Part shown: positions 10,622 through 43,551 of the stretch, one piece after another
How the letters are laid out: every line of letters starts with the position of its first letter
Numbering within the stretch: position 1 is the first letter of the stretch
From: Pseudomonas sp. RSB 5.4
GTDB taxonomy: Bacteria; Pseudomonadota; Gammaproteobacteria; Pseudomonadales; Pseudomonadaceae
Assembly: GCF_037126175.1 (NCBI RefSeq)
Contig: NZ_CP146986.1
Coordinates: 2,012,501-2,076,500, forward strand
Reading direction: 5' to 3'
Length of the DNA: 64,000 nucleotides
The notes under the pieces: model-generated
Told to the model about the DNA's origin: nothing
Databases searched by the model: none
Seen by the model: the letters and a program-made list of their open reading frames with translations, nothing else
Program-made: the position numbers and the translations under genes

Positions 10622-10633
10622 ATGGTATACCAT
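10622..10633. promoter_or_regulatory. Operator ATGGTATACCAT (site 1 of a putative GntR regulon)
   Basis: This is a perfect 12-bp palindrome 40 bases before the DUF1185 start codon. The core GGTATACC has the GT/AC half-sites of FadR-subfamily operators. Near copies (10-11 of 12 bases) occur at 16453, 17805, 17820, 41633 and 41806, each before a related transcription unit. The likely binder is the GntR protein at 14688-15440. Confidence 0.7.
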
Positions 10634-10672
10634 CAGACGCACAGACACTCTTAATCCCCTACGGAGCAGCTC

Positions 10673-11263
10673 ATGAGTTTCGAAATTCGCAAGATCGTCA
10701 GCTATGTCGAAGAAACCTTCATCGAAGGCGGCAAGGCCACTGACAAGCCAGTGACCATGGTCGGCCTGGCCGTGGTGATGAAAAACCCGTGGGTCGGCAA
10801 CGGTTTCGTTGAGGATCTGAAACCGCAGATCCGCGCCAACTGCTTCGACCTCGGCGCAATGATGGTCGAGCGCCTGGTGGGCATCATCGGCGGTGCGGAC
10901 AAGATCGAGGCGTACGGCAAGGCTGCAGTGGTCGGCGCCGACGGCGAAATCGAACACGCCTCAGCGGTGATCCACACCCTGCGCTTCGGCAATCACTACC
11001 GCGAGGCGGTCAAGGCCAAGAGCTACCTGAGCTTCACCAACAAGCGCGGCGGCCCGGGCACTTCGATTCAGATCCCGATGATGCACAAGGACGACGAAGG
11101 CCAGCGCTCGCACTACATCACTCTGGAAATGCAGATCGAAGACGCGCCGCGTGCCGACGAAATCGTCGTGGTGCTCGGTTGCGCCGACGGTGGTCGCTTG
11201 CACCCGCGCATCGGCAACCGCTACATCGATCTGGAAGAACTGGCCGCCGAAAAAGCCCAGTAA
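10673..11263 (+). CDS. DUF1185 'amino acid synthesis' family protein
   Basis: The 196-residue protein begins MSFEIRKIVSYVEETFIEGG and contains EAVKAKSYLSFTNKRGGPGT and GCADGGRLHPRIGNR. These match the DUF1185 family, whose biochemical function is not established; the common name 'amino acid synthesis protein' is not backed by a known reaction. A related structure is said to have a chorismate-mutase-like trimeric fold (from memory). It is the first gene of an operon behind operator site 1 and is followed after 31 bases by an alpha/beta hydrolase. An enzymatic or carrier role in the catabolic pathway is inferred. Confidence 0.75.
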   Translation: MSFEIRKIVSYVEETFIEGGKATDKPVTMVGLAVVMKNPWVGNGFVEDLKPQIRANCFDLGAMMVERLVGIIGGADKIEAYGKAAVVGADGEIEHASAVIHTLRFGNHYREAVKAKSYLSFTNKRGGPGTSIQIPMMHKDDEGQRSHYITLEMQIEDAPRADEIVVVLGCADGGRLHPRIGNRYIDLEELAAEKAQ

Positions 11264-11294
11264 TCACAATAAAAAGGCATTGCAGGAGCGCTCC

Positions 11295-12128
11295 ATGATT
11301 CGGCTCACCGCTGAACTCACCCCGGCTGGCACCAGTTACCTGGCGACCGGCCAAGGCCAGCCCGTGGTCTTGATCCACGGCGTGGGCCTGAACAAAGAAA
11401 TGTGGGGCGGCCAGATCGTTGGCCTGTCTGCCCAATACCAGGTGATCGCCTACGACATGCTCGGCCACGGCGCGAGCCCGCGCCCGGCCAGCGGCACCGG
11501 CCTGCTCGGTTATGCCGATCAGTTGCTGGAGCTGCTCGATCACCTGAATCTGCCCCATGCAGCGGTGATCGGTTTCTCCATGGGCGGGCTGGTGGCGCGG
11601 GCGTTTGCCCTGCACTATCCGGAGCGCCTGCAAAGCCTGGTGGTACTGAACAGCGTGTTCAACCGCAGCGAGGAGCAACGTGCCGGGGTCATTGCACGCA
11701 CCGCTCAAGCTGCCGAACACGGGCCGGACGCCAACGCCGAAGCGGCGCTGTCACGCTGGTTCAGCCGTGAATATCAGGCGGCCAACCCGGCGCAGATCGC
11801 GGCCATTCGCCAGACCCTGGCCGGCAACGATCCGCAGGGTTACCTGACCACCTACGAATTGTTCGCGACCCAGGACATGTACCGCGCCGACGACCTCGGC
11901 AGCATTCAGGCGCCGACGCTGATCGCCACCGGCGAACTCGACCCCGGGTCCACCCCGGAAATGGCCGAGCAACTGGCCCGACGCATCCCCGGCGCGAAGG
12001 TTGCGGTGCTGCCCGAGCAACGGCATATGATGCCGGTAGAGTCGCCGCGGCTGGTCAACCAGACGTTGCTGGAATTTCTCGAATTCGCACACTCCCGACA
12101 AAATCAAATAAAGGGGATCGTTGCATGA
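11295..12128 (+). CDS. Alpha/beta-fold hydrolase (RutD-like)
   Basis: The 277-residue protein has the alpha/beta hydrolase layout: oxyanion region HGVGLNKEMW (about residues 29-37), nucleophile S95 in GFSMGG, an acid in ATGELDPGSTPE, and catalytic H244 in EQRHMMPVE. The ATG at 11295 follows GCAGGAGCG, a good ribosome binding site. Its stop overlaps the aldehyde dehydrogenase start (ATGA at 12125). Together with a flavin reductase and an LLM monooxygenase in the same putative regulon, it resembles RutD of pyrimidine ring breakdown, which speeds hydrolysis of an intermediate. The substrate is not known. Confidence 0.8.
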   Translation: MIRLTAELTPAGTSYLATGQGQPVVLIHGVGLNKEMWGGQIVGLSAQYQVIAYDMLGHGASPRPASGTGLLGYADQLLELLDHLNLPHAAVIGFSMGGLVARAFALHYPERLQSLVVLNSVFNRSEEQRAGVIARTAQAAEHGPDANAEAALSRWFSREYQAANPAQIAAIRQTLAGNDPQGYLTTYELFATQDMYRADDLGSIQAPTLIATGELDPGSTPEMAEQLARRIPGAKVAVLPEQRHMMPVESPRLVNQTLLEFLEFAHSRQNQIKGIVA

Positions 12129-13606
12129 CACTCGCACGCTTCCAGATGTGCATCGGCGGAGAATGGGTCGACGCCCTCTCCGGCAAGACCTTCGAAAGCC
12201 TCAACCCGGCCAGCGCGCAAGCCTGGGCCGAACTGCCCGACGCCGATGAAGCCGATGTCGAACGCGCCGTGCAAGCCGCACAAACGGCATTCGACAGCCC
12301 GGCCTGGCGCGGCCTCACCGCCACCGCTCGCGGCAAGCTGCTGCGGCGTCTCGGTGACCTGATCGCGGACAACAAGGAACAACTGGCGCAGCTGGAAAGC
12401 CGCGACAACGGCAAACTGATCCGCGAAACCCGTGGTCAGGTCGGTTATCTGCCGGAGTTCTTCCACTACACCGCAGGCTTGGCCGACAAGCTTGAAGGCG
12501 GCACCCTGCCGCTGGACAAGCCCGACCTGTTTGCCTACACCGTGCACGAAGCGATGGGTGTGGTCGCCGCGATCATTCCGTGGAACAGCCCGCTGTACCT
12601 GACCGCGATCAAACTGGCCCCGGCCCTCGCCGCCGGCAACACCATTGTGATCAAGCCGTCCGAACACGCTTCGGCGACCATCCTTGAGCTGGCGCGACTG
12701 GCGCTGGAAGCCGGGATTCCGCCGGGCGTGGTCAACGTCGTCACCGGTTACGGCCCGAGCACCGGCGCCGCCCTCACCCGCCATCCGCTGATCCGCAAGA
12801 TCGCCTTCACCGGCGGCGCGGCCACGGCCCGGCACGTGGTGCGCAGCAGCGCCGAAAACTTCGCCAAACTGTCGCTGGAACTGGGCGGCAAGTCGCCGAA
12901 CATCATCTTCGCCGACGCCGATCTGGACAGCGCGATCAACGGCGCAATCGCCGGGATTTATGCGGCCTCCGGTCAGAGTTGCGTGTCCGGCTCACGCCTG
13001 CTGGTGCAGGACGAAATCTACGACGAGTTCGTCAACCGCCTGGTCGAACGCGCCCAGCGCATCCGCATCGGCAACCCGCAGGAGGACCACAGCGAAATGG
13101 GTCCGATGGCTACTGCGCAGCAACTGGCGGTGGTCGAAGGTCTGGTGGCCGATGCCATCGCTGAAGGTGCGCGGTTGCGCACCGGCGGCAAGCGTCCGGC
13201 GGATCTGGGTGACGGCTGGTTCTACGAGCCGACGCTGTTCGAGTGCGACCGCAACTCGATGAAGATCATGCAGGAAGAGGTCTTCGGCCCGGTGGCTTCA
13301 GTGATTCGCTTTAAAGACGAGGCCGAGGCGCTGGCAATCGCCAACGATTCGCAGTTCGGCCTCGCCGCCGGCATCTGGACCCGCGATCTGGGCCGTGCCC
13401 ATCGCCTGGCGCGCGACGTGCGTTCGGGGATCATCTGGGTCAATACCTACCGTGCAGTGTCGGCGATGGCGCCGATCGGCGGCTTCAAGAACAGTGGCTA
13501 TGGACGCGAAAGCGGCATCGATTCGGTGCTGGCCTACACCGAACTGAAAACGGTGTGGATCAATCTCTCTCAGGCCCCGATGCCTGATCCGTTTGTGATG
13601 CGCTAG
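12125..13606 (+). CDS. NAD(P)-dependent aldehyde dehydrogenase
   Basis: The 493-residue protein has the full aldehyde dehydrogenase set: IPWNSPLYLTAIKLAPALAA, the cofactor region IVIKPSEHAS, FTGGAATAR, the general base Glu in LELGGKSP, catalytic C286 in GQSCVSG, and EVFGPVASV. The length is normal. It overlaps the alpha/beta hydrolase gene by 4 bases and is followed after 12 bases by a flavin reductase, so the genes form one operon. It should oxidise an aldehyde or semialdehyde made by the pathway to the acid in the cytosol. The exact aldehyde is unknown. Confidence 0.9.
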   Translation: MTLARFQMCIGGEWVDALSGKTFESLNPASAQAWAELPDADEADVERAVQAAQTAFDSPAWRGLTATARGKLLRRLGDLIADNKEQLAQLESRDNGKLIRETRGQVGYLPEFFHYTAGLADKLEGGTLPLDKPDLFAYTVHEAMGVVAAIIPWNSPLYLTAIKLAPALAAGNTIVIKPSEHASATILELARLALEAGIPPGVVNVVTGYGPSTGAALTRHPLIRKIAFTGGAATARHVVRSSAENFAKLSLELGGKSPNIIFADADLDSAINGAIAGIYAASGQSCVSGSRLLVQDEIYDEFVNRLVERAQRIRIGNPQEDHSEMGPMATAQQLAVVEGLVADAIAEGARLRTGGKRPADLGDGWFYEPTLFECDRNSMKIMQEEVFGPVASVIRFKDEAEALAIANDSQFGLAAGIWTRDLGRAHRLARDVRSGIIWVNTYRAVSAMAPIGGFKNSGYGRESGIDSVLAYTELKTVWINLSQAPMPDPFVMR

Positions 13607-13618
13607 GAGTCCTGCGAC

Positions 13619-14104
13619 ATGATCGAACCCGGCATTTACAAAGACGTCATGAGCTCGTTTCCGTCCGGGGTCACGGTGGTCACCACCCTCGACCCGGAGG
13701 GCGCCATCGTCGGCATCACCGCCAGCGCCTTCAGCGCGCTGTCGATTGATCCGGCGCTGGTGCTGTTCTGCCCCAACTACGCTTCCGACACCTACCCGGT
13801 GCTGCGCGACAGCAAGAAATTCGCAATCCATTTGCTGTCCGCCGACCAGACCGCCGAGGCCTACGCTTTCGCCGGTAAAGGCAAGGACAAGGCCAAGCAC
13901 ATCGAGTGGCATTTGAGCGAACTCGGTAACCCGATCCTCGCCAAGGCCACGGCGATCATCGAGTGCGAGTTGTGGCGTGAATACGACGGTGGTGATCACG
14001 CGATCATCGTAGGCGCGGTGAAGAACCTGATTCTGCCCGAACAGCCGGTGACGCCGATGATTTATCACAAGGGCAAGCTCGGACCTTTGCCGACATTGTC
14101 CTGA
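13619..14104 (+). CDS. Flavin reductase family protein (first copy)
   Basis: The 161-residue protein matches the short-chain flavin reductases that feed reduced FMN to two-component monooxygenases (HpaC and RutF group). SSFPSGVTVVTT near the N-terminus and GITASAFSALSIDPALVLFC bind flavin. GDHAIIVGAVKNL carries the conserved histidine. It is closely similar over its whole length to the protein at 41868-42353. TAGGAG is the ribosome binding site. No flavin monooxygenase lies in this operon; the only LLM enzyme in the window is next to the second copy at 42508. Confidence 0.88.
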   Translation: MIEPGIYKDVMSSFPSGVTVVTTLDPEGAIVGITASAFSALSIDPALVLFCPNYASDTYPVLRDSKKFAIHLLSADQTAEAYAFAGKGKDKAKHIEWHLSELGNPILAKATAIIECELWREYDGGDHAIIVGAVKNLILPEQPVTPMIYHKGKLGPLPTLS

Positions 14105-14212: not shown

Positions 14213-14239
14213 AGGAGAACCAGGGTGACAGGAGGAATG

Positions 14240-14629
14240 ATGAGTAATGACAAGTACGAAAAAGGCCTGAAGATCCGCACCCAGGTGCTGGGCGAAGCCT
14301 ACGTGCAGCGTTCAATAGAGAACGCCGACGACTTCACCCGTCCATTGCAGGAGATGGTCACCGAATACTGCTGGGGCCATGTCTGGGGGCGTGAGGGTTT
14401 GTCGCTCAAGGAGCGCAGCATGATCAACCTGGCGATGATCTCGGCGCTCAACCGCCCGCACGAACTCAAGCTGCATGTGCGCGGCGCCTTGCGTAACGGC
14501 CTGAGTCGTGAGCAAATACGCGAAATTCTGCTTCAGGTCGGTATTTATTGCGGCGTCCCGGCAGCCGTGGACAGTTTCCGGCTCGCCCGTGAAGCCTTCG
14601 CCGAAGCCGACGCCGAGGCCTCCAGTTAA
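14240..14629 (+). CDS. Carboxymuconolactone decarboxylase (CMD)-family protein
   Basis: The 129-residue helical protein contains EYCWGHVWGREGLSLKERSM and LLQVGIYCGVPAAVDSF, typical of CMD and AhpD-like proteins. Family members decarboxylate 4-carboxymuconolactone or act as small redox proteins. No other protocatechuate-pathway gene is near, so the decarboxylase label should not be read as a pathway. AGGAGG at 14230-14235 favours the ATG at 14240 over the ATG at 14237. It lies between the flavin reductase and the GntR regulator. Confidence 0.75.
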   Translation: MSNDKYEKGLKIRTQVLGEAYVQRSIENADDFTRPLQEMVTEYCWGHVWGREGLSLKERSMINLAMISALNRPHELKLHVRGALRNGLSREQIREILLQVGIYCGVPAAVDSFRLAREAFAEADAEASS

Positions 14630-14687: not shown

Positions 14688-15440
14688 ATGAAACGCCAGC
14701 CACTCGACGACAGCTTCAAGGTCAATCGCAACCCCGTTACCCTGCGCGAAATCGTGCTGGATAAACTGCGTAGCGCGATCATGAATTTCCAGCTCATGCC
14801 CGGTGATCGTCTGGTGGAGCGCGATCTGTGCGATCGCCTCGGTGTCAGCCGTACATCGGTGCGCGAAGCCTTGCGTCACCTGGAGTCCGAAGGTCTGGTC
14901 GAGTTCGCCGATGCCAAAGGCCCACGGGTGGCGATCATCACCCTCGCCGATGCGGTCGACATCTACGAGCTGCGCTGCGTGCTCGAAGGCCTGATCGTCC
15001 AGTTGTTCACCCTGCGCGCCAAGGCCAAGGACATCAAGGCCCTGGAAAAAGCCCTCGACGAGAACCGCAAGGCACTCAAGGACGGCGAACTGCAACAGGT
15101 GATCGACTCGGTGCAGGGTTTCTACGACGTGCTGCTCGAAGGCTCGGGCAACCATGTCGCGGCCACTCAACTGCGCCAGTTGCAGGCACGCATCAGCTAC
15201 CTGCGGGCGACTTCGGTGTCCCAGGAAAACCGTCGCGGCGCGAGTAATCAGGAAATGGAAAAGATGGTCGAGGCGATCAAGAGCGGTGATGCGCTGGCGG
15301 CGCATCAGGCCTGCGTCGATCACGTGCGCGCCGCGGCCGCCGTGGCCCTCGATTACCTCAAGCGCAAACAGGAAGAGACCGGCGCGACGCCGAACATCAC
15401 CCTGCCGATCGCGCTGAAAGAACCGCGCATAGGTCACTGA
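14688..15440 (+). CDS. GntR/FCD-type transcriptional regulator of the flavin regulon (putative)
   Basis: The 250-residue protein has a GntR winged helix (about residues 18-85, with LCDRLGVSRTSVREALRHLE) and a helical FCD domain (YELRCVLEGLIVQLF onwards). It lies inside the catabolic operon, 2 bases before the Nudix gene. It is the only GntR protein in this locus, and FCD-type regulators bind GT/AC palindromes. It is therefore the best candidate to bind the ATGGTATACCAT-like sites before five units. No such site lies directly before the gene itself; it would be controlled from site 1. Regulon membership is inference from the sites. Confidence 0.85.
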   Translation: MKRQPLDDSFKVNRNPVTLREIVLDKLRSAIMNFQLMPGDRLVERDLCDRLGVSRTSVREALRHLESEGLVEFADAKGPRVAIITLADAVDIYELRCVLEGLIVQLFTLRAKAKDIKALEKALDENRKALKDGELQQVIDSVQGFYDVLLEGSGNHVAATQLRQLQARISYLRATSVSQENRRGASNQEMEKMVEAIKSGDALAAHQACVDHVRAAAAVALDYLKRKQEETGATPNITLPIALKEPRIGH

Positions 15441-15441
15441 C

Positions 15442-16005
15442 ATGTTCAGCCCGAGCTTTTGCCCGAAATGCGGTGGCCCTGACCTCGGTCAGCAGGTACC
15501 GCCGGGCGATACGCACGAGCGCCTGATGTGCCGCGGCTGCGGCTACATCCACTACGTCAATCCGAAGATCATCGCCGGCTGCATTATCGAGCAGGACGGC
15601 AAATACCTCTTGTGCCAACGGGCGATCCCCCCGCGTCCGGGCACCTGGACACTGCCGGCCGGCTTCATGGAAAGCGGCGAAACCACCGAGCAGGCGGCGC
15701 TGCGTGAAGTCTGGGAAGAAAGCGGCGTGCGCGCGGAAATCGTCTCGCCCTACTCGATTTTCAGCGTGCCGAAGATCAGCGAGGTGTACATCATCTTCCG
15801 CGCCCTCGCGCTGGAGATCACCGGCCAGTTCGGCCCTGAGACCATGGACTACAAGTTCTTCGCCCCCGAAGACATTCCGTGGGACAAGATCTATTACCCG
15901 GCGATCCGGCAGATCCTCGAGCGCTATATCGAGGAGCGTCAGGCCGGGGTGTATGGGATCTATATGGGCAATGATGACAGCGGGAAAATCCACTTTATCC
16001 GCTAA
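15442..16005 (+). CDS. Zinc-ribbon Nudix hydrolase, possibly FAD pyrophosphatase
   Basis: The 187-residue protein has an N-terminal zinc ribbon (CPKCGG and CRGCGY, residues 8-34). A complete Nudix box follows: GFMESGETTEQ then AALREVWEESGV, with all the conserved Gly, Arg and Glu residues. The arrangement and local sequence recall plant chloroplast NUDX23-type FAD pyrophosphatases (comparison from memory). Such an enzyme splits FAD to FMN and AMP. Other genes of the putative regulon need FMN (flavin reductases, LLM monooxygenase) or make a riboflavin precursor, so a flavin substrate is attractive but unproven. It starts 2 bases after the GntR stop. Confidence 0.8.
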   Translation: MFSPSFCPKCGGPDLGQQVPPGDTHERLMCRGCGYIHYVNPKIIAGCIIEQDGKYLLCQRAIPPRPGTWTLPAGFMESGETTEQAALREVWEESGVRAEIVSPYSIFSVPKISEVYIIFRALALEITGQFGPETMDYKFFAPEDIPWDKIYYPAIRQILERYIEERQAGVYGIYMGNDDSGKIHFIR

Positions 16006-16021: not shown

Positions 16022-16111
16022 TGTGGGAGCGGGCTTGCTCGCGAATGCGGTCAATCATTCAACATTTCTATCGACTGACACGACGCCTTCGCGAGCAAGC
16101 CCGCTCCCACA
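16022..16111. repeat. REP inverted pair (REPIN)
   Basis: A standard REP pair separates the convergent Nudix and DUF1330 genes. Confidence 0.9.
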
Positions 16112-16129
16112 GGGGATTTGGGATGTTGC

Positions 16130-16426
16130 TTAAAGTGGAGCAATGCCCTCGACAATGACGATCTCCGCCCTCGCCCATTCCTCGCGATAACGTTTCGCCT
16201 CCTGATACGCCGCCGAGTGGTAGCACGCCAGCGCCTGCTCGTAGCTCTCGAACTCGATCACCACGCTACGCTGAGGCGTAGCCCTGCCCTCCACCGCCTG
16301 GCTGCGCCCGCCCCTGGCCAGAAACTTGGCGCCGAATTCGGCAAACGCCTTCGGTGCGCGCTGGGTGTATTGGCTGTAGTGCTCGGCATCGTCGACATCC
16401 ACGTGGGCAATCCAGTACGCCTTCAT
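16130..16426 (-). CDS. DUF1330 protein (dimeric alpha/beta barrel)
   Basis: The 98-residue protein begins MKAYWIAHVDVDDAEHYSQY and contains RSVVIEFESYEQALACYHS and YQEAKRYRE. This is the DUF1330 signature, a small ferredoxin-like fold that usually dimerises. The function of the family is not settled. It is divergent from the RibB-type gene, and operator site 2 (16453-16464) lies between the two starts, so it probably belongs to the same regulon. Confidence 0.8.
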   Translation of the reverse strand: MKAYWIAHVDVDDAEHYSQYTQRAPKAFAEFGAKFLARGGRSQAVEGRATPQRSVVIEFESYEQALACYHSAAYQEAKRYREEWARAEIVIVEGIAPL

Positions 16427-16452: not shown

Positions 16453-16464
16453 ATGGTATACCAA
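16453..16464. promoter_or_regulatory. Operator ATGGTATACCAA (site 2)
   Basis: It matches 11 of the 12 bases of site 1. It lies between the divergent DUF1330 gene (start 16426) and RibB-type gene (start 16495), 30 bases before the latter, and could repress both. Confidence 0.65.
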
Positions 16465-16494: not shown

Positions 16495-17604
16495 ATGGCC
16501 TTCAACAGCATCGAAGAAATCCTCGAAGATTATCGCCTCGGCAAAATGGTCCTGCTGGTCGATGACGAAGATCGGGAAAACGAAGGCGACCTGCTGCTGG
16601 CCGCCGACTGCTGCACACCCGAGGCGATCAGCTTCATGGCGCGTGAGGCGCGCGGGCTGATTTGCCTGACACTGACCGACGAACACTGCCAGCGCCTGGG
16701 CCTTGAGCAAATGGTGCCGAGCAACGGCAGCGTGTTCAGCACCGCGTTTACCGTGTCGATTGAAGCGGCAGTCGGCGTCACCACCGGCATCTCTGCGGCT
16801 GACCGCGCGCGAACGGTCGCTGCCGCGGTGGCGAAAGACGCCCGTGCTGAAGACCTGGTGCAACCCGGGCACATCTTCCCGCTGCGCGCCAAGGAAGGCG
16901 GCGTGCTGACCCGCGCCGGCCACACCGAGGCCGGATGCGATCTGGCGCGCCTCGCCGGTTTCACCCCGGCCTCGGTGATCGTCGAGGTGATGAACGATGA
17001 CGGCACCATGGCTCGCCGGCCCGATCTGGAAGTGTTTGCGCGCAAGCACGGGATCAGGATCGGCACCATCGCTGACCTGATCCACTACCGTCTGAGCACC
17101 GAGCACACCATTGAACGCATCGGCGAGCGTGAACTGCCGACGGTGCATGGCACTTTCCGTTTGATCACTTTCGAAGACCGCATCGAGGGTGGCGTGCACA
17201 TGGCGATGGTCATGGGCGATCTGCGTCGCGAAGAGCCGACGCTGGTGCGCGTGCATGTGATCGATCCGCTGCGTGATCTGGTCGGCGCCGAATACAGCGG
17301 GCCGAGCAACTGGACGCTGTGGGCGGCGCTGCAGCGGGTCGCGGCTGAAGGGCACGGGGTTGTGGTGGTGTTGGCCAATCATGAATCGTCCCAGGCGCTG
17401 CTGGAGCGCGTGCCGCAATTGACCCAGCCGCCGCGACAGTTCAGTCGTTCGCAATCGCGGATTTATTCGGAGGTCGGTACCGGGGCGCAGATTCTGCAGA
17501 ACCTGGGGGTGGGCAAGCTGCGGCATCTGGGGCCGCCACTCAAATATGCGGGGCTGACCGGGTATGACCTGGAGGTGGTAGAGAGTATCCCCTTCAGCGA
17601 ATAA
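16495..17604 (+). CDS. RibB-type 3,4-dihydroxy-2-butanone 4-phosphate synthase with degenerate RibA-like domain
   Basis: The N-terminal half (about residues 1-200) is a RibB domain: [16 protein letters not shown] (acidic metal-binding loop), [17 protein letters not shown] and [20 protein letters not shown]. It would make the four-carbon riboflavin precursor from ribulose 5-phosphate. The C-terminal half resembles GTP cyclohydrolase II, but the zinc-binding cysteine cluster is missing. Around [20 protein letters not shown] no Cys is seen where RibA has CLTGD and CDCG. It is thus probably a RibB enzyme with an inactive second half. Its place behind operator site 2, with flavin-using genes, suggests an inducible extra copy for flavin supply. 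Confidence 0.85.
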
Positions 17605-17627
17605 CTCCACAGAACACCACGCTCCCC

Positions 17628-17717
17628 TGTGGGAGGGGGCTTGCTCCCGAAGGCGCCGTATCAGTCGACATCAATGTTGAATGACCCAACGCATTCGCGA
17701 GCAAGCCCGCTCCCACA
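17628..17717. repeat. REP inverted pair (mixed arms)
   Basis: The left arm is TGTGGGAGGGGGCTTGCTCC and the right arm is the standard GCGAGCAAGCCCGCTCCCACA. It follows the RibB-type gene. Confidence 0.88.
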
Positions 17718-17804
17718 AGGGGTTTTGCGTTTCAGCCCCATTTCCTCGAACGACAAAAAATGGCTCCGCCAGATAACCGGTAAGGCAAAGTGCTTGCACA
17801 AAGT

Positions 17805-17831
17805 TTGGAATACCATAATATGATATTCCAT
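17805..17831. promoter_or_regulatory. Double operator before the ABC transporter (site 3)
   Basis: TTGGAATACCAT (17805-17816) and ATGATATTCCAT (17820-17831) each match 10 of 12 bases of site 1 and are 15 bases apart centre to centre. Together they form a larger inverted repeat with arms TGGAATA and TATTCCA. The pair lies about 95 bases before the transporter start. Confidence 0.55.
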
Positions 17832-17925
17832 AGACCGAGCGACCTGAAAAACCGTCCGGCTACTGCTCCCGACAGGCGGGCAACAACGCAAGCCCGCTCA
17901 AAAACACAACAATGAGGGCGTGAAA

Positions 17926-18951
17926 ATGGTGTTGAACAAAGCTGCAACCGCAATCCTTTTTGCGGGACTGCTGAGCGTGACCGGCCAGGCTGCAATGGCC
18001 GCCGAAAGCGTGAACTTCGTCAGCTGGGGCGGTAGCACCCAGGATGCGCAGAAACAGGCCTGGGCCGATCCGTTCAGCAAAGCCAGCGGCATCACCGTGG
18101 TGCAGGACGGCCCGACCGACTACGGCAAACTCAAGGCCATGGTCGAAAGCGGCAACGTGCAATGGGACGTGGTCGATGTCGAAGCCGATTTCGCCCTGCG
18201 CGCCGCGGCCGAAGGCCTGCTCGAACCCCTCGACTTCAAAGTCATTCAGCGCGACAAGATCGACCCGCGTTTCGTCAGCGATTACGGCGTCGGCTCGTTC
18301 TTCTTCTCCTTCGTCCTCGGCTACAACGAAGGCAAGCTCGGCGCGGCCAAGCCGCAAGACTGGACCGCGCTGTTCGACACCAAGACCTACCCCGGCAAAC
18401 GCGCCCTGTACAAATGGCCAAGCCCCGGCGTGCTCGAACTGGCGCTGCTGGCCGACGGCGTGCCGGCCGACAAGCTCTACCCGCTGGACCTTGATCGCGC
18501 CTTCAAGAAACTCGACACCATCAAGAAAGACATCGTCTGGTGGGGCGGCGGCGCGCAGTCGCAGCAACTGCTGGCCTCCGGTGAAGCGAGCATGGGCCAG
18601 TTCTGGAACGGCCGCATTCACGCCCTGCAGGAAGACGGCGCCCCCGTCGGCGTGAGCTGGAAACAGAACCTGGTCATGGCCGACATTCTGGTGATTCCAA
18701 AAGGCTCGAAAAACAAGGACGCGGCGATGAAGTTCCTGGCCAATGCCAGCAGTGCCAAAGGCCAGGCCGACTTCTCCAACCTGACCGCCTACGCCCCGGT
18801 CAACGTCGACAGCGTGGCGCGCCTGGACTCGGTGCTGGCCCCGAACCTGCCGACTGCCTACGCTAAGGATCAGATCACTCTTGATTTCGCGTACTGGGCC
18901 AAGAACGGTCAAGCCATCGCGACACGGTGGAACGAATGGCTGGTCAAATGA
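17926..18951 (+). CDS. Polyamine-type ABC transporter substrate-binding protein
   Basis: The 341-residue protein starts with a signal peptide (ending QAAMAAES) and continues with VNFVSWGGSTQDAQKQ, the layout of PotD/PotF-like periplasmic proteins. WDVVDVEADFALRAAAEGLL and WWGGGAQSQQLLASGEASM are typical ligand-cleft regions. GAGGG at 17914-17918 favours the ATG at 17926 over the in-frame GTG at 17920. Two permease genes and an ATPase gene follow directly. The ligand need not be a polyamine: the family also binds other small cationic or zwitterionic compounds. Operator site 3 links it to the catabolic genes, so it may import the pathway substrate. Confidence 0.88.
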   Translation: MVLNKAATAILFAGLLSVTGQAAMAAESVNFVSWGGSTQDAQKQAWADPFSKASGITVVQDGPTDYGKLKAMVESGNVQWDVVDVEADFALRAAAEGLLEPLDFKVIQRDKIDPRFVSDYGVGSFFFSFVLGYNEGKLGAAKPQDWTALFDTKTYPGKRALYKWPSPGVLELALLADGVPADKLYPLDLDRAFKKLDTIKKDIVWWGGGAQSQQLLASGEASMGQFWNGRIHALQEDGAPVGVSWKQNLVMADILVIPKGSKNKDAAMKFLANASSAKGQADFSNLTAYAPVNVDSVARLDSVLAPNLPTAYAKDQITLDFAYWAKNGQAIATRWNEWLVK

Positions 18952-19892
18952 AAATGGCGGCCACCGCGTCCCGTCCCTCCACTGCCACCGGGAGCGCCAC
19001 GAGCGCTGCCGGTCCGGCCACAGGCAAGGCGAGTGCAATGGCGCAAGCCCCGTCCCTCAGACAACGCTGGCGCGGCGCCGGCAACCTCGTCCCGGCACTG
19101 CTGTTCCTCGGCCTGTTCTTTCTCGCGCCGTTGATTGGCCTGCTGTTGCGCGGCGTGCTGGAACCGACCCCGGGCCTTGGCAACTATGAACAACTGTTCG
19201 CCAACTCGGCGTATGCACGGGTGCTGCTCAACACCTTTTCGGTGGCCGGACTGGTAACGATTTTCAGCCTGTTGCTGGGCTTTCCGCTGGCCTGGGCGAT
19301 CACCCTGGTACCGCGCGGCTGGGGCCGCTGGATTCTCAACATCGTGTTGCTGTCGATGTGGACCAGCCTGCTCGCCCGCACCTATTCGTGGCTGGTGCTG
19401 CTGCAAGCCTCGGGCGTGATCAACAAGGCGCTGATGGCGCTGGGGATCATCGATCAGCCGCTGGAAATGGTGCACAACCTGACCGGCGTGGTGATCGGCA
19501 TGAGTTACATCATGATCCCGTTCATCGTCCTGCCGTTGCAGGCGACCATGCAGGCCATCGACCCGATGATCCTGCAGGCCGGCTCGATCTGCGGCGCGAG
19601 TCCCTGGACCAATTTCTTCCGGGTGTTCCTGCCGCTGTGCCGGCCGGGTCTGGCATCCGGCGGGTTGATGGTGTTCGTGATGTCGCTCGGGTACTACGTC
19701 ACCCCGGCGCTGCTCGGCGGGGCGCAGAACATGATGCTGCCGGAGTTCATCATTCAGCAGGTGCAATCGTTCCTCAACTGGGGCCTGGCCAGTGCCGGCG
19801 CCGCGTTGCTGATCGCGATCACCCTGGTGCTGTTCTACTTCTACCTGAAGCTTCAGCCGGAATCCCCGGTTGGCGCCAGCAACGCGAGGTAA
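18948..19892 (+). CDS. ABC transporter permease (PotB-like)
   Basis: The 314-residue inner-membrane protein has a polar N-terminal tail of about 45 residues, then six membrane segments. The cytoplasmic loop DPMILQAGSICGASPWTNFFR is the EAA loop that contacts the ATPase. The ATG at 18948 overlaps the stop of the binding-protein gene (ATGA); an upstream ATG at 18927 would give a longer overlap and is less likely. It pairs with the next permease. Confidence 0.88.
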   Translation: MKMAATASRPSTATGSATSAAGPATGKASAMAQAPSLRQRWRGAGNLVPALLFLGLFFLAPLIGLLLRGVLEPTPGLGNYEQLFANSAYARVLLNTFSVAGLVTIFSLLLGFPLAWAITLVPRGWGRWILNIVLLSMWTSLLARTYSWLVLLQASGVINKALMALGIIDQPLEMVHNLTGVVIGMSYIMIPFIVLPLQATMQAIDPMILQAGSICGASPWTNFFRVFLPLCRPGLASGGLMVFVMSLGYYVTPALLGGAQNMMLPEFIIQQVQSFLNWGLASAGAALLIAITLVLFYFYLKLQPESPVGASNAR

Positions 19893-19898: not shown

Positions 19899-20708
19899 AT
19901 GCTCCTGACTCCCAATGCCATGAACCGCCGGATGCGTTTCGGGCTCTACGCCACCACCGGCCTGATCGGCTTGTTCCTGCTGTTGCCGATCGTGTTCATC
20001 GTCCTGCTGTCGTTCGGTTCGTCGCAGTGGCTGGTGTTCCCGCCGCCGGGCTGGACGCTGAAATGGTACGGCCAGTTCTTCTCCAACGCCGACTGGATGA
20101 ACGCCGCTGCGGCCAGCCTCAAGGTTGCCGTGCTGACCACGATCTGCGCCGTGGCCCTCGGTTTGCCAACCGCGTTTGCTCTGGTGCGCGGACGCTTCCC
20201 CGGCCGGGAAATGCTTTACGGTCTGTTCACCCTGCCGATGATCGTGCCGCTGGTGATCATCGCGGTGGCGGTGTACGCGCTGTTTCTCAAGCTCGGTTAC
20301 ACCGGGACCCTGTTCGCCTTCGTGGTCAGCCATGTGATCGTCGCGCTGCCGTTCACCATCATCTCGATCATCAACTCGCTGAAGCTGTTCGATCAGTCGA
20401 TTGAAGACGCGGCGGTGATCTGCGGCGCCTCACGCCTGCAAGCGGTGTTCAAGGTGACCTTTCCGGCGATCCGCCCGGGCATGGTCGCCGGCGCCCTCTT
20501 CGCCTTTCTGGTTTCGTGGGACGAAGTGGTGCTCAGCGTGATGATGGCCAGTCCGACCCTGCAAACCCTTCCCGTGAAAATGTGGACCACCCTGCGCCAG
20601 GACCTGACCCCGGTGATCGCCGTCGCTTCGACGCTGCTGATCGGCCTGTCGGTGTTGGTCATGGTGATCGCCGCCGCGCTGCGCCGGCGCAACGAAATCA
20701 GCGCCTGA
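19899..20708 (+). CDS. ABC transporter permease (PotC-like)
   Basis: The 269-residue protein has six membrane segments and the EAA loop EDAAVICGASRLQAVFKVTF. FPPPGWTLKWYGQFF near the N-terminus is typical of PotC-type permeases. It starts 6 bases after the previous permease and is followed after 17 bases by the ATPase gene. It forms the second half of the membrane channel. Confidence 0.88.
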   Translation: MLLTPNAMNRRMRFGLYATTGLIGLFLLLPIVFIVLLSFGSSQWLVFPPPGWTLKWYGQFFSNADWMNAAAASLKVAVLTTICAVALGLPTAFALVRGRFPGREMLYGLFTLPMIVPLVIIAVAVYALFLKLGYTGTLFAFVVSHVIVALPFTIISIINSLKLFDQSIEDAAVICGASRLQAVFKVTFPAIRPGMVAGALFAFLVSWDEVVLSVMMASPTLQTLPVKMWTTLRQDLTPVIAVASTLLIGLSVLVMVIAAALRRRNEISA

Positions 20709-40046: not shown

Positions 40047-40166
40047 GTGGCGAGGGGATTCATCCCCGATGGGGCGCGAAGCGGCCCCCTTTACATCTCA
40101 AAGAGGGCCGCACTCGCTGTTTTCACGACTGCTTCGCAGCCGATCGGGGATAAATCCCCTCGCCAC
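40047..40166. repeat. Third palindromic family (GTGGCGAGGGGATT type)
   Basis: GTGGCGAGGGGATTCATCCC at the left and its complement at the right (ending TCCCCTCGCCAC) enclose about 80 bases. The right part overlaps the 3' end of the NCS1 permease gene. Confidence 0.8.
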
Positions 40167-41550
40167 GTTGCTTCTGCATCTGCCCGCGTGTGGCGAGGCA
40201 GTAATACAGCGGCACTGTCACCACCAGGCCAAACAGCCACGACAGATCCGCACCGTCCACCAGATTGGCGTACGGCCCGACGTACAGCGAGGTATTGGCG
40301 AACGGCAGCTGCACAATGATGCCGATGAAGTAGGCAATGATCGCGTGCAGATTGAAGCGCCCGTAAATGCCGCCGTCCGCGCGGAAAATCGAGCTGATGT
40401 CATAGCTGCCGCGCTTGATCAGATAGAAGTCGATCAGGTTGATCGACGCCCACGGCACCAGCACCAGCAGCAACGCCAGAATCAGCCCGATGAACTGCGA
40501 AATGAAATCCGCCGAAGCACCGAGCGCCACCACGCAACAAGCCGCCAGCACCACGCTCGACAACACCACGCGCACCTTGATGCTTGGCGTCCACTGGCTG
40601 GCGAAGGTCTGGATCGAGGTGATGATCGACAGCACCGCGCCGTACAGATTCAGCGCGTTGTGGCTGATGATATTGAGCAAAAACAGCACCATCAGAATCG
40701 GCCCCAGCCACCCGGTGGACTGCTTGACCGCCACCATCGCCTCGGTGCCTTCCGGCGTTGCCAGCACCGCAACGGCGCCAAAGCTGAACGACAGAATCGT
40801 GCCCAGCGTCGCGCCCAGGTAAGTGGCCCAGAACGGTTTGGCGATACCGATATCCGCCGGCAGGTAACGCGAATAGTCGGACACATACGGCGAGAAGCTG
40901 ATCTGCCAGATGATCCCCAGCGACACCGTCGCCAGCCAGCCCGACAGGTTGAAACTGCCGCGCGTCAGGAAGTCTGCCGGCAAGTCGTGAGCGAAGATGT
41001 AAATGAAACCGGCGAGCAGCGCGCTGCCCATCACCCAGGTGCCGATGCGGTTCAGTGTATGGATGAAGTTGTAGCCGATCACACCAATCGCCGTGGCCGC
41101 CAGTGCGCCAATCAGAATGCTCAGCGGCGCCGGTACCGACGGTGCGATACCGACAATCGATTTACCGGCAAGCACGATGTTGGAAATGAAGAAACCGATG
41201 TAGATCAGCGCCGCAAAAAACACGATCAGCAGTGCGCCGTAACGCCCGAACTGGCCACGACTCTGGACCATTTGCGGAATGCCCATGCGCGGGCCTTGCG
41301 CCGACGCCAGAGCGATCACCACCCCGCCGATCAGGTGCCCCAGCGCAATCGCCAGCAGCCCCCAAAGCAAGTCGAGATGGAACACCTGAACCACCATGGC
41401 GCCGGTGACGATGGGCAGTGGCGCGATGTTGGTGCTGAACCATAAGGTGAAAAGGTCGCGGGCCTTCCCGTGGCGTTCCGCGAGTGGGACGTAGTCGACC
41501 GTGTGATTCTCGATCAACGGATCTTGCCGGGACATCTGGGACATATGCAT
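40123..41550 (-). CDS. NCS1-family (cytosine/purine/allantoin-type) permease
   Basis: The 475-residue protein has about twelve membrane segments and NCS1 features such as FTLWFSTNIAPLPIVTGAMV, GIPQMVQSRGQFGRYGALL and SFSPYVSDYSRYLPAD. The family imports nucleobases and related N-heterocycles (cytosine, allantoin, hydantoin), coupled to protons or sodium. Operator site 4 (41633) lies 83 bases before the start. The last dozen residues (RGEGIYPRSAAKQS) are encoded by an extragenic repeat, so the original C-terminus was replaced. Several ATGs at the start (41550, 41544, 41535) are possible. It is divergent from the flavin reductase/LLM genes and probably imports their substrate. Confidence 0.88.
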   Translation of the reverse strand: MHMSQMSRQDPLIENHTVDYVPLAERHGKARDLFTLWFSTNIAPLPIVTGAMVVQVFHLDLLWGLLAIALGHLIGGVVIALASAQGPRMGIPQMVQSRGQFGRYGALLIVFFAALIYIGFFISNIVLAGKSIVGIAPSVPAPLSILIGALAATAIGVIGYNFIHTLNRIGTWVMGSALLAGFIYIFAHDLPADFLTRGSFNLSGWLATVSLGIIWQISFSPYVSDYSRYLPADIGIAKPFWATYLGATLGTILSFSFGAVAVLATPEGTEAMVAVKQSTGWLGPILMVLFLLNIISHNALNLYGAVLSIITSIQTFASQWTPSIKVRVVLSSVVLAACCVVALGASADFISQFIGLILALLLVLVPWASINLIDFYLIKRGSYDISSIFRADGGIYGRFNLHAIIAYFIGIIVQLPFANTSLYVGPYANLVDGADLSWLFGLVVTVPLYYCLATRGQMQKQRGEGIYPRSAAKQS

Positions 41551-41632
41551 GAACTCGAGTTTGTCTGTTCTTATCTTTGTATGAAGCCAAACCGGGGGGT
41601 CTCTGGGTCGCCCCTCAGATGAAGACCATATT

Positions 41633-41644
41633 ATGGTATTCCAA
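41633..41644. promoter_or_regulatory. Operator ATGGTATTCCAA (site 4)
   Basis: It matches 10 of 12 bases of site 1 and lies before the NCS1 permease gene on the minus strand. Confidence 0.55.
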
Positions 41645-41805
41645 ACATTTCACAAGACTGATCCGTAGTTTACAGCGCTATCTGATCCGCCATCCTCACT
41701 GATACTGCAGCCTTCAGGCCAGCCACAAGCCCAATAAATGCTGAGTTTCCGACGAAAGCACCACGTTTATCGGTTCAGCCTAAAAGCCCTTGCAAAGAAA
41801 AAATA

Positions 41806-41817
41806 CTGGTATACCAT
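41806..41817. promoter_or_regulatory. Operator CTGGTATACCAT (site 5)
   Basis: It matches 11 of 12 bases of site 1. It lies 51 bases before the second flavin reductase start, in front of the reductase/LLM monooxygenase pair. Confidence 0.65.
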
Positions 41818-41867
41818 CAGACCAACAAGTACATAAAAATCGCGTCACAACACCCGAGGACCGTCCA

Positions 41868-42353
41868 ATGATCGATGCTGCCATCTACAAACAAGTCATG
41901 GGCTCGTTTCCGTCCGGCGTCACTGTCATCACCACGCTGGACGATGACGGCCAGATCGTCGGCCTCACCGCCAGCGCCTTCAGTTCACTGTCGATGGACC
42001 CAGCCCTGGTGCTGTTCTGCCCCAACTACAGCTCCGACTCCTACCCTGTGCTGATCAAGAACAAGCGCTTCGCGATCCACGTCCTGTCCGGCGGCCAGCA
42101 AAGCGAAGCCTACGCCTTCGCCCGTAAAGGCAAAGACAAGGCGCAGGGCATCGAGTGGACGTTGAGCGAGCTGGGCAACCCGATCCTGGCCAATGCGACG
42201 GCTATCATCGAGTGTGAGTTGTGGCGCGAATATGAAGGTGGTGATCACGCGATCATGGTCGGTGCGGTGAAGAACCTGATCGTCCCGGAGCAGCACACCG
42301 GGCCGCTGGTGTATTGCCACGGCAAGATGGGCGCCCTGCCCGTTCTGGCCTGA
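41868..42353 (+). CDS. Flavin reductase family protein (second copy)
   Basis: The 161-residue protein is very similar over its whole length to the one at 13619-14104: FPSGVTVITT, GLTASAFSSLSMDPALVLFC and GGDHAIMVGAVKNL. CGAGGACCG before the ATG at 41868 supports this start over the in-frame ATG at 41790. It should supply reduced FMN to the LLM monooxygenase encoded 155 bases downstream. Operator site 5 lies just upstream. Why the regulon needs two reductases is unclear. Confidence 0.88.
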   Translation: MIDAAIYKQVMGSFPSGVTVITTLDDDGQIVGLTASAFSSLSMDPALVLFCPNYSSDSYPVLIKNKRFAIHVLSGGQQSEAYAFARKGKDKAQGIEWTLSELGNPILANATAIIECELWREYEGGDHAIMVGAVKNLIVPEQHTGPLVYCHGKMGALPVLA

Positions 42354-42376
42354 TCGTCAGCCCTACACAAATCAAC

Positions 42377-42466
42377 TGTGGGAGGGGGCTTGCTCCCGAA
42401 AGCGATGTGTCAGCCACCAGAGATGTCGATTGATCCACCGCTTTCGGGAGCAAGCCCCCTCCCACA
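42377..42466. repeat. REP inverted pair (GGGGGCTTGCTCCCG variant)
   Basis: Both arms are the TGTGGGAGGGGGCTTGCTCC variant. The pair lies between the flavin reductase and the LLM monooxygenase genes. Confidence 0.88.
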
Positions 42467-42507
42467 CAGTCTTGTAGCCACAACAATAAAAGACCCGAGG
42501 AAGCGTC

Positions 42508-43551
42508 ATGAAATTTTCCCTGTTCATCCACATGGAACGCTGGGACGAAAGCGTCAGCCACCGCCAACTGTTCGAAGATCTGACCGAACTGACCCTGATG
42601 GCCGAGGCCGGCGGTTTCAGCACCGTGTGGATCGGCGAACACCACGCGATGGAATACACCATCTCGCCAAGCCCGATGCCGCTGCTGGCCTACCTCGCCG
42701 CCAAAACCACCACCATCCACCTCGGCGCCGGCACCATCATCGCGCCGTTCTGGCACCCACTGCGGGTCGCTGGTGAATGCGCGCTGCTCGACGTCATCAG
42801 CAACGGACGCATGGAAGTCGGCCTGGCGCGCGGCGCCTATCAGGTCGAATTCGATCGCATGGCCGGCGGCATGCCCGCCTCCAGCGGCGGCCAGGCCCTG
42901 CGCGAAATGGTCCCGGTGGTCCGCGCCCTGTGGCAAGGCGACTACGCCCACGACGGCGACATCTGGAAATTCCCGACCTCGACCAGCGTGCCGAAGCCGA
43001 TTCAGAAGCCCAACCCACCGATGTGGATCGCCGCCCGCGACCCGGATTCGCACAACTTCGCCGTGGCCAACGGCTGCAACGTGATGGTCACACCGTTGAT
43101 GAAAGGTGACGAAGAAGTCGTCGACCTGAAAAACAAATTCCAGACCGCGCTGGACAACAACCCAGACGTACCGCGTCCACAACTGATGGTGCTGCGCCAC
43201 ACCCATGTGCACTCGGCTGACGACCCAGAAGGCTGGAAAGTTGGCGCGAAAGCGATCTCACGGTTCTATCGCACCTTCGATGCGTGGTTTGGCAACAAGG
43301 AGGTGCCGGTCAACGGCTTCCTTGCCCCAAGCCCTGAAGAGAAGTTTGCCGGGCGTCCGGAGTTTGAACTGGAGAGCCTGCACAAGACGGCGATGATTGG
43401 TACGCCGGAGGAGATTATTCCGCGGATCAAGTATTACCAGGAACTTGGGGTGGATGAGTTTAGTTTCTGGTGTGACAACAGTCTGCCGCATGCGGAGAAG
43501 AAGAAGTCGTTGGAGTTGTTTATCAGGGATGTGGTGCCGGCGTTTCGCTGA
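42508..43551 (+). CDS. LLM-class flavin-dependent monooxygenase
   Basis: The 347-residue protein is a luciferase-like (TIM-barrel) monooxygenase: SLFIHMERWDESVSHRQLFE at the start, GFSTVWIGEHHAMEYTISPS, LGAGTIIAPFWHPLRVAGE and EVGLARGAYQVEFDRM. It uses reduced FMN from a separate reductase, here encoded just upstream. RutA, which opens the uracil ring, belongs to the same superfamily. The reaction here is unknown, but context (NCS1 permease, alpha/beta hydrolase, aldehyde dehydrogenase) suggests oxidative attack on a nitrogen compound. GACCCGAGGAAGCGTC gives a ribosome binding site. Confidence 0.88.
   Translation: MKFSLFIHMERWDESVSHRQLFEDLTELTLMAEAGGFSTVWIGEHHAMEYTISPSPMPLLAYLAAKTTTIHLGAGTIIAPFWHPLRVAGECALLDVISNGRMEVGLARGAYQVEFDRMAGGMPASSGGQALREMVPVVRALWQGDYAHDGDIWKFPTSTSVPKPIQKPNPPMWIAARDPDSHNFAVANGCNVMVTPLMKGDEEVVDLKNKFQTALDNNPDVPRPQLMVLRHTHVHSADDPEGWKVGAKAISRFYRTFDAWFGNKEVPVNGFLAPSPEEKFAGRPEFELESLHKTAMIGTPEEIIPRIKYYQELGVDEFSFWCDNSLPHAEKKKSLELFIRDVVPAFR

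Follow-up and report, generated by a model that had tools for sequence, protein, structure and literature searches.

Two distant loci of Pseudomonas sp. RSB 5.4 quite probably form a single regulon of the GntR protein encoded at 14688, serving Tgn-type uptake and breakdown of a nitrogenous plant compound that is most likely trigonelline. We analyzed one stretch of this genome, hereafter the window (64,000 nt, GCF_037126175.1, NZ_CP146986.1:2,012,501-2,076,500, forward strand). The initial annotation had proposed that the two loci constitute one GntR regulon, and this proposal is supported by sequence evidence of four kinds: the operators that the loci share, the conservation of these operators, the linkage of the two loci, and their co-occurrence with the 14688 GntR.

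Operator sites in the window and the genome

All six palindrome copies listed in the initial annotation (10622, 16453, 17805/17820, 41633, and 41806) were found at these positions (Table 1). Relative to ATGGTATACCAT, the copy at 10622 is exact, those at 16453 and 41806 carry one mismatch, and those at 17805, 17820, and 41633 carry two. Allowing up to two mismatches, the window contains 6 matches compared with 0.53 expected, and none of 100 shuffled windows contained 6 (the largest count was 4). There are no further sites at this threshold, in agreement with the earlier remark that no copy lies within a gene or before the unrelated genes. Each copy had also been placed just before a transcription unit; this holds for all six, but the layout is one of four intergenic regions serving six units. 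The 16453 site lies between the divergent genes for DUF1330 (- strand) and RibBA (+ strand), the 41633 site serves the NCS1 permease gene on the - strand, and the 41806 site precedes the gene for flavin reductase 2, the gene for the luciferase-like monooxygenase (LLM) having no site of its own in the window.

The core TGGTATACCA occurs three times in the 6.24-Mb genome, always within this regulon, and the three sites genome-wide with at most one mismatch to ATGGTATACCAT all reside in the window. Exactly two mismatches are found at 30 sites, of which 27 lie outside the window and 3 inside it; together with the stronger sites this makes 33, compared with 17 for a reversed-pattern control. The genome scan for equally good sites elsewhere thus gave a split answer: there were none for the strong sites, but because of the 27 other two-mismatch sites, those at 17805, 17820, and 41633 are not set apart by mismatch count in their own genome. 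These weaker sites are supported because they are conserved, before the ABC operon in 67/67 countable loci and before the NCS1 gene in 7/7. A promoter scan of the four operator regions returned two weak matches (shuffle means, 0.1-0.5), and a predicted -10 element at 17819-17824 overlaps operator 3b. We found no description of this operator in searches of the open-licence literature, a minority of which queried the motif itself and gave no paper that was bacterial by its title.

Table 1. Operators and genes of the proposed regulon, with window coordinates
Feature	Position	Strand	Context or support
Operator 1, ATGGTATACCAT	10622..10633		Before DUF1185 operon; site in 78/78 countable loci
DUF1185 / AA_synth protein (TgnF kind)	10673..11263	+	PF06684 E 1.4e-70; PDB 2qtp, 3byq
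Alpha/beta hydrolase	11295..12128	+	PF00561 E 7.2e-32
Aldehyde dehydrogenase	12125..13606	+	Below every curated cut-off shown
Flavin reductase 1	13619..14104	+	PF01613
Carboxymuconolactone-decarboxylase-family protein (CMD)	14237..14629	+	PF02627
FCD-type GntR regulator (candidate binder of every operator)	14688..15440	+	PF00392 + PF07729
NUDIX hydrolase	15442..16005	+	PF00293
DUF1330 protein	16130..16426	-	PF07045
Operator 2, ATGGTATACCAA	16453..16464		Between divergent DUF1330 and RibBA; 67/67 countable loci
RibBA	16495..17604	+	PF00926/PF00925
Operator 3a, TTGGAATACCAT	17805..17816		Before ABC transporter operon; 67/67 countable loci
Operator 3b, ATGATATTCCAT	17820..17831		15 bp after 3a; 65 occurrences of this sequence across 67 loci
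ABC substrate-binding protein, close to GABA-sensor scaffold	17920..18951	+	PDB 6dgv, 9d57, 4eq7
ABC permease 1	18927..19892	+	ORF; gene order in distant stretches
ABC permease 2	19899..20708	+	ORF; gene order in distant stretches
ABC ATPase	20726..21880	+	ORF; start from distant stretches
NCS1-family permease	40123..41550	-	TIGR02358/TIGR00800, below their cut-offs
Operator 4, ATGGTATTCCAA	41633..41644		Before NCS1 permease (- strand)
Operator 5, CTGGTATACCAT	41806..41817		Before flavin reductase 2 and LLM
Flavin reductase 2	41868..42353	+	NF045630 E 7.4e-42, below cut-off
Luciferase-like FMN monooxygenase, LLM (TgnB kind)	42508..43551	+	PF00296 E 5.7e-55

Conservation, linkage, and co-occurrence of the two loci

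We investigated 80 Pseudomonas loci around close orthologues of the 14688 GntR (the best 80 of 305 relatives); part of the conservation among them reflects recent ancestry, because their GntRs are 94-100% identical. Genes less than 300 bases from a locus end, or with a match starting after query residue 15, were left out of the counts, by which permease 1 fell out entirely. A site was present upstream of every countable DUF1185 (78/78), DUF1330, RibBA, and substrate-binding protein gene (67/67 each) and, for the second locus, upstream of 7/7 NCS1 and 8/8 flavin reductase 2 genes. The internal genes had none (alpha/beta hydrolase, aldehyde dehydrogenase, flavin reductase 1, and NUDIX, 0/79 each; CMD, 0/70; GntR, 0/80; permease 2, 0/67; ATPase, 0/47). 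Sites lay within 300 bp of 7/7 and 18/18 countable NCS1 genes and of 8/8 and 19/20 countable flavin reductase 2 genes. Among 30 LLM loci, including that of the window, the LLM gene had its own site within 300 bp in 15, and one locus (L121) had no site at up to two mismatches.

Overall, the 80 loci contained 304 sites, compared with 18 in one Markov draw. Ten sites appeared to be strays. On reading, true strays numbered four (L026, L034, L043, and L050), and the others were DUF1185 sites at locus ends (L056 and L081), two NCS1/flavin reductase 2 sites (L064), and two sites preceding LLM genes that are truncated at the boundary of the locus (L080 and L083). L079 has an NCS1 match with no site in its stretch and was not countable, and G138 has a two-mismatch site inside flavin reductase 1. 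In other species with separate RibBA/DUF1330 loci, all 16 second exact sites read, taken from among the matches listed, lie between DUF1330 and RibBA; 7 of these are on a contig other than that of the GntR gene, 7 are at least 133 kb from it, and the remaining two (G015 and G007) are 18-20 kb from it. The palindromes thus keep roughly their spacing to the genes that they precede, wherever in the genome these genes lie, with one operator before each transcription unit and few elsewhere. Such conservation supports the prediction of one regulon.

The co-occurrence of the loci, suggested earlier as a check, was confirmed across 149 Pseudomonas genomes: LLM and GntR were found together in 84, GntR only in 2, an LLM orthologue only in none, and neither in 63 (Fisher p ~3e-40, with the relatedness of the genomes ignored). 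For these counts, the LLM matches of G044 and G119, only 42-43% identical, were not accepted as orthologues, whereas a partial LLM (G046), an LLM in two pieces (G080), a GntR in two pieces (G076), and a GntR with an internal stop (G077) were kept. The two loci of the window are 24 kb apart. In at least 10 of the 80 loci, the same stretch also contained the second locus, in part or completely; this is a lower bound because the flanks end at 10 kb. Of 23 single-contig genomes, 5 had the two loci separated by more than 100 kb.

Beyond the close Pseudomonas relatives, we took 9 of the 14 non-genus genomes with LLM and read 10 of 1238 plasmid records. Among 19 stretches from more distant relatives, 17 retained an operator; the site before DUF1185 was absent in Arthrobacter, whose GntR is 30% identical, and in G789, a short contig. 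Five sites in the 19 stretches lay away from the cluster (L133:2497, L145:1824, L148:2864, L151:1858, and L159:1068). In alpha- and betaproteobacteria, relatives of the 14688 GntR are clustered with the operator, and relatives of the substrate-binding protein share a cluster with the luciferase-like monooxygenase. A single Burkholderia stretch contains nearly all kinds of both loci, and the Arthrobacter cluster includes genes annotated as riboflavin kinase and as succinate-semialdehyde dehydrogenase. The G871 stretch has a GC content of 41.5%.

The regulator

The 14688 protein matches the GntR winged-helix (PF00392, 63.7 bits) and FCD (PF07729, 87 bits) domains, both above cut-off. It is inherited together with its operator and targets: the exact operator was found in 84 of 86 GntR-positive genomes versus 1 of 63 GntR-negative genomes, and the two exceptions among the positives carry one-mismatch sites, so that regulator and exact operator are jointly present or jointly absent in 146 of the 149. 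FadR-type proteins bind GT/AC palindromes, and the FadR subfamily (FCD) includes the regulators PdhR, LldR, UxuR/ExuR, and VanR. Our system resembles these regulons in its FCD GntR, its short GT/AC palindrome, and a catabolic operon that contains its own regulator. The operator resembles the UxuR/ExuR type, although the pathway is unrelated. In the FCD domain, a histidine usually binds metal; the 14688 protein carries FY where nearly all FCD paralogues of the genome compared carry FH, and thus lacks this histidine. The 14688 protein is the best candidate binder of the operators and very probably binds them, probably as a repressor rather than an activator. Autoregulation is likely, since operator 1 precedes the DUF1185 operon, which includes gntR.

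Two other accounts of the palindromes can be weighed against these observations. If they were chance occurrences or a common repeat with no regulatory role, the 27 other two-mismatch sites in the genome would be unsurprising; the window shuffles, the genome counts, and the conservation in the 80 loci, where the sites keep their approximate spacing to their genes even when these have moved, lead us to reject this account, whose probability is negligible. Alternatively, a different regulator could read the operators; one example is the second FCD-type GntR of the window, a member of the same family encoded at 4445-5164, and the genome offers 15 FCD matches as potential readers. We consider this highly improbable, given the concordance of the 14688 protein with the exact operator and the presence of its relatives with the operator in other classes. 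The residues FY are common to all 21 regulon GntRs aligned but absent from the 4445-5164 protein, which we rejected as the binder on this ground, and from 13 further genomic paralogues; the 4445 protein and 12 of these 13 have FH instead. The motif LE.E(G/H)LV is likewise absent from 13 of these 14 paralogues and is present in L172.

Catabolic genes and the likely substrate

The gene set matches the type of the Tgn pathway for trigonelline, as judged by the kinds of enzymes. Trigonelline (tgn) catabolism was reportedly described in Acinetobacter baylyi ADP1 by Perchat et al. (PNAS, 2018). Like that system, ours comprises a flavin reductase, a luciferase-like monooxygenase, an aldehyde dehydrogenase, a hydrolase, and a DUF1185 protein. 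The monooxygenase and reductase are recognized by PF00296 and PF01613, and the DUF1185, aldehyde dehydrogenase, and hydrolase genes share one unit; the LLM and the flavin reductases do not reach curated NCBIfam cut-offs. We take the alpha/beta hydrolase to be of the TgnD kind, the aldehyde dehydrogenase of the TgnC or TgnE kind, and both flavin reductases of the TgnA kind. The Tgn pathway uses two aldehyde dehydrogenases, TgnC and TgnE; the window operon has only one, and in Arthrobacter, G642, G874, G871, and G138 extra aldehyde dehydrogenase matches adjoin the cluster. In contrast to ADP1, many Pseudomonas genomes distribute the genes among at least two loci, with RibBA, NUDIX, DUF1330, CMD, and ABC and NCS1 transport added under one operator. 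The set also resembles the Rut system (RutA-G) in its luciferase-like monooxygenase, RutF-like reductase, RutD-like hydrolase, and nucleobase-type permease, but differs in having DUF1185. A Rut-type pyrimidine pathway was rejected, as the equivalog scores were far below cut-off (RutD, 95.1 versus 238.5 bits; RutF, 64.5 versus 254.75 bits).

The second RibBA and the NUDIX hydrolase are reasonably likely to serve cofactor (flavin) supply. This RibBA is one of two RibB-domain (PF00926) genes in the genome. Control of it by an FMN riboswitch was rejected: no Rfam match reached the gathering score within the window, and the single FMN riboswitch found in the genome lies at 2987026. In several distant clusters, flavin reductase and NUDIX matches run in line, with the NUDIX-homologous stretch after the flavin reductase and the annotated flavin reductases spanning 308-320 residues by coordinates.

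The substrate-binding protein of the ABC transporter is nearly identical to 6dgv, a precursor of a fluorescent GABA sensor, over 276 residues and the C-terminus, and is also close to 4eq7; the protein of the S. meliloti pSymA cluster is even nearer to 4eq7 (607 bits), which we take to be Agrobacterium Atu4243, a GABA-binding protein. The similarity to the sensor scaffold could mean that GABA, and not trigonelline, is the cargo. The regulon would then serve GABA or GABA-like compounds, with the ABC transporter importing GABA and the enzymes acting on a GABA-yielding compound. We regard this as improbable: GABA can be used without an NCS1 permease, flavin reductases, or a monooxygenase of the luciferase-like kind, and what an engineered sensor binds is no proof of what its parent protein binds in nature. 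A difference from the known GABA-binding proteins is that the gene here is controlled by the operator of a regulon for heterocycle catabolism. A different pyridine or pyridinium substrate (homarine, N-methylpyridinium, or a nicotinate derivative) is less far-fetched but still rather unlikely. Luciferase-like monooxygenases with flavin reductases serve several heterocycles (RutA/F and pyridine monooxygenase), and substrates may differ because the LLM matches in the Proteobacteria read, Pseudomonadaceae and G706 apart, are only 48-56% identical. Against this stands the combination of DUF1185, hydrolase, aldehyde dehydrogenase, LLM, and flavin reductase, which is that of Tgn. Published work states that TgnA/TgnB open the trigonelline ring and argues, for steric reasons, that they are unlikely to act on homarine (PMC8269262). 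It also places TgnB, in A. baylyi Q6F9F6, among the luciferase-like monooxygenases (PMC11354265), and describes TgnF of Acinetobacter baylyi as homologous to a DUF1185 protein, although those authors could not demonstrate that the DUF1185 protein of their own study stimulates in the manner of TgnF (PMC7913881). On balance, we favor trigonelline (N-methylnicotinate) as the substrate. More tentatively, and with some doubt, the transporter family behind the GABA sensors might be a natural importer of trigonelline or a related cyclic zwitterion, in a regulon coupled to a dedicated, riboswitch-free flavin supply, with an operator near ATGGTATACCAT across three proteobacterial classes although gene positions changed.

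Proposed model and implications

We propose that the 14688 GntR would act as a local repressor that controls six transcription units, its own operon among them, by binding palindromes of the ATGGTATACCAT type in the four intergenic regions, and would be released by the pathway substrate or an early intermediate. The regulon would take up a pyridinium-type heterocycle through the ABC transporter and the NCS1 permease and degrade it by the Tgn route. Flavin reductase and the luciferase-like monooxygenase would open the ring, and the aldehyde dehydrogenase, the DUF1185 protein, and the alpha/beta hydrolase would process the chain in the direction of succinate semialdehyde. The second RibBA and the NUDIX hydrolase would raise flavin supply, since a two-component monooxygenase needs flavin.

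Trigonelline is abundant in legumes. It is also abundant in coffee (PMC10146819), and the regulon is therefore likely a plant-association trait. Sixteen loosely annotated genes gain a candidate regulator, an operator, and a likely pathway, with regulator and monooxygenase present in over half of the sampled Pseudomonas genomes. Our results indicate that scattered loci can remain one regulon, and they point to direct tests of the inducer, of the substrate, and of what the protein underlying the GABA sensors binds in nature.

An operator shared by two loci

The initial annotation had proposed that the DUF1185 locus and a distant locus, comprising an NCS1 permease, a second flavin reductase and a luciferase-like monooxygenase (LLM), form a single GntR regulon marked by a recurring palindrome. 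A pattern search recovered all six of the named sites matching ATGGTATACCAT at up to two mismatches, and no more, where 0.53 were expected by chance and 0 of 100 shuffles reached six. The idea that equally good sites are confined to these loci held for the better matches: the core TGGTATACCA occurs three times in the 6,243,169-base genome, always inside the window, and the only three sites with at most one mismatch are these same three. On this genome alone it did not hold for sites with two mismatches, 27 of which (of 30) lie outside the window; the genome total of 33 compares with 17 for a reversed-pattern control. Since two-mismatch sites are common in the genome, the three weaker sites in the window need conservation to be credible. 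REP-like inverted repeats (gtgggagcgggcttgctcgcgaa...), seen by eye, separate transcription units.

Features of the window and of related stretches (L numbers)
Feature	Position	Remark
Operator sites, at most one mismatch	10622, 16453, 41806	
Operator sites, two mismatches	17805, 17820, 41633	
FCD-type GntR	14688-15440 (+)	in DUF1185 operon
ABC substrate-binding protein	17920-18951	
REP-like repeats	10432-10520, 16022-16115, 17625-17720	by eye
Dehydratase-like ORF	2485-4221	by eye
Second FCD-type GntR	4445-5164	downstream of dehydratase-like ORF
Transposase-like ORF	5522-6727	after second GntR; by eye
Flavin reductase/NUDIX homology	L146:11054-11989	continuous
Mesorhizobium gene	L148:10208-11995	1788 bases
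Arthrobacter cluster, plasmid pDCT5	L132:10342-21068	compact

Conservation and co-inheritance

Comparison with related sequences backs the three weaker sites. We examined 80 loci, the best 80 of 305 relatives of the window's GntR found by scanning genomes with the protein (94-100% identical, close kin). The exact 12-mer lies upstream of DUF1185 in all 78 countable genes. Among countable genes of the same set, a site precedes the divergent DUF1330 and RibBA in 67/67, the ABC operon in 67/67 (with a second site in 65), NCS1 in 7/7 and flavin reductase 2 in 8/8. Operon-internal genes had none: hydrolase abH, aldehyde dehydrogenase (ALDH), flavin reductase 1 and NUDIX (each 0/79), the carboxymuconolactone-decarboxylase-family gene (CMD, 0/70), GntR (0/80), permease 2 (0/67) and ATPase (0/47); this tally leaves out permease 1. 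At least one upstream site (≤2 mismatches) was present in 29 of 30 LLM loci, the sole exception, L121, having none at that threshold. Some or all of the second-locus genes follow the ABC operon in at least 10 of the 80 loci, a lower bound because the retrieved flanks stop at 10 kb, and this adjacency alone is enough to link the two loci.

Across 149 Pseudomonas genomes, LLM orthologues were found in 84 (86 matches minus two at 42-43% identity) and GntR in 86, bearing out the expected co-occurrence of the two loci: both were present in 84, GntR alone in two (G058, G076) and neither in 63, and LLM never occurred without GntR. The exact operator was found in 85 genomes, comprising 84 of the 86 with GntR and one of the 63 without. 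The GntR-positive genomes lacking an exact site (G043, G080) hold one-mismatch sites, no regulon gene lies in the 3-kb stretch around the site of G099, the one genome with the operator but without GntR, and the reversed-pattern control matched 2/149 genomes. Fisher tests of co-inheritance, which ignore relatedness, gave p ~2e-38 and, for LLM with GntR, ~3e-40. G058 carries an apparently decaying operon (L192), with the operator, a partial DUF1185 and GntR left and the flavin reductase in pieces; this 13-kb stretch has neither an ALDH nor a hydrolase match, and the LLM orthologue is absent from the genome.

In 23 single-contig genomes, GntR and LLM lie from 5 kb to more than 1 Mb apart (over 100 kb in five), and in the two with the widest spacing (G019, G029) the LLM locus keeps two sites (L105, L110). 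Second exact sites retrieved from 16 other genomes (seven on a contig other than that of GntR, seven at ≥133 kb and two at 18-20 kb) sit between DUF1330 and RibBA in 16/16. Together with the varied spacing, this indicates that species split the regulon differently and that the operator travels with the pieces. Site conservation, co-inheritance and site retention at split loci thus support the single-regulon interpretation.

Beyond the genus, we inspected 19 stretches (10 plasmid regions and nine from genomes of other genera). In 17 of the 19, regulon genes such as DUF1185 or LLM have a site (≤2 mismatches) upstream, the exact site lying ahead of DUF1185 in Leisingera (Roseobacteraceae), Mesorhizobium, Azospirillum and G338, and ahead of LLM in G874. 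At this threshold none was found in Arthrobacter, whose GntR is 30% identical, or in G789; five additional sites lie apart from the cluster. A Burkholderia multivorans plasmid stretch unites the ABC transporter, two GntR, DUF1330, DUF1185, hydrolase, two flavin reductases, LLM, ALDH, NCS1 and CMD, that is, everything in the two Pseudomonas loci apart from RibBA and a stand-alone NUDIX gene. The Arthrobacter LLM, from another phylum, is 78% identical to that of the window, which suggests transfer between phyla. In S. meliloti KH46 the cluster resides on pSymA; older work reportedly located the trigonelline catabolism genes of S. meliloti on the symbiotic plasmid.

The regulator

All 21 aligned cluster regulators, including the window's, share two signatures: LE.E(G/H)LV, which follows the recognition helix, and an FY within the FCD domain. 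FH replaces FY in the second GntR of the window, in Arthrobacter and in 12 of 13 other paralogues, the remaining one having neither; one paralogue (L172) has the LE.EGLV part. The histidine of FH binds metal in many FCD proteins. If this usual model holds, FY represents a lost metal ligand in the window's GntR and its 20 relatives, and the window's regulator may therefore sense its ligand without the usual metal. The regulator is most likely a repressor, given that a site lies 39 bp upstream of the DUF1185 start, that the two weak promoter matches found by a promoter scan both overlap operators, and that the regulator gene is part of the operon under its putative control; it may instead act by activation.

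Probable flavin supply and the trigonelline proposal

Of two RibB-domain genes in the genome, the window copy carries the operator, and a riboswitch search of the window found none. In alpha- and betaproteobacterial clusters (L133, L134, L146, L147), flavin reductase and NUDIX homology is continuous within one gene-sized stretch, annotated reductases in such clusters have 308-320 residues, and the single annotated Mesorhizobium gene spans hydrolase, flavin reductase and NUDIX matches. These observations point to fusions and suggest a joint role. RibBA and NUDIX would raise FMN for the monooxygenase.

Set against the trigonelline (Tgn) pathway, TgnC and TgnD steps included, the window holds every kind of enzyme as judged by domain searches, but only one ALDH. 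Annotations in the Arthrobacter cluster include a succinate-semialdehyde dehydrogenase and a riboflavin kinase. The lead came from a passage in a coumarin-degradation paper stating that its own DUF1185 protein is homologous to Acinetobacter baylyi TgnF, which reportedly stimulates TgnE in oxidising succinate semialdehyde, an effect that, according to the same passage, could not be demonstrated for the study's own protein (PMC7913881). A section of another report describes trigonelline ring opening by TgnA/TgnB, with homarine an unlikely substrate, and less effective growth of Ruegeria pomeroyi on homarine than on trigonelline (PMC8269262); a figure legend groups TgnB with luciferase-like monooxygenases (PMC11354265).

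The ABC substrate-binding protein aligns with 6dgv, the precursor of a fluorescent GABA sensor, at residues 29-304 and 303-343; ~15 differences fall within the first 276 positions (counted by eye). It is nearly identical to the sensor scaffold (6dgv, 9d57) and related to 4eq7, against which the binding protein of the S. meliloti cluster scores 607 bits. Whereas the sensor is named for GABA, its close relative here belongs to a ring-opening regulon. Trigonelline combines a carboxylate with a positive ring nitrogen, as do known cyclic GABA analogues, and by this likeness may be the protein's natural cargo.

Overall, our analysis supports an FCD-GntR catabolic regulon of an already known type, to which we add the trigonelline pathway proposal. 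Its added interest lies in the scattered loci, the conserved operator and the relative of a GABA sensor.
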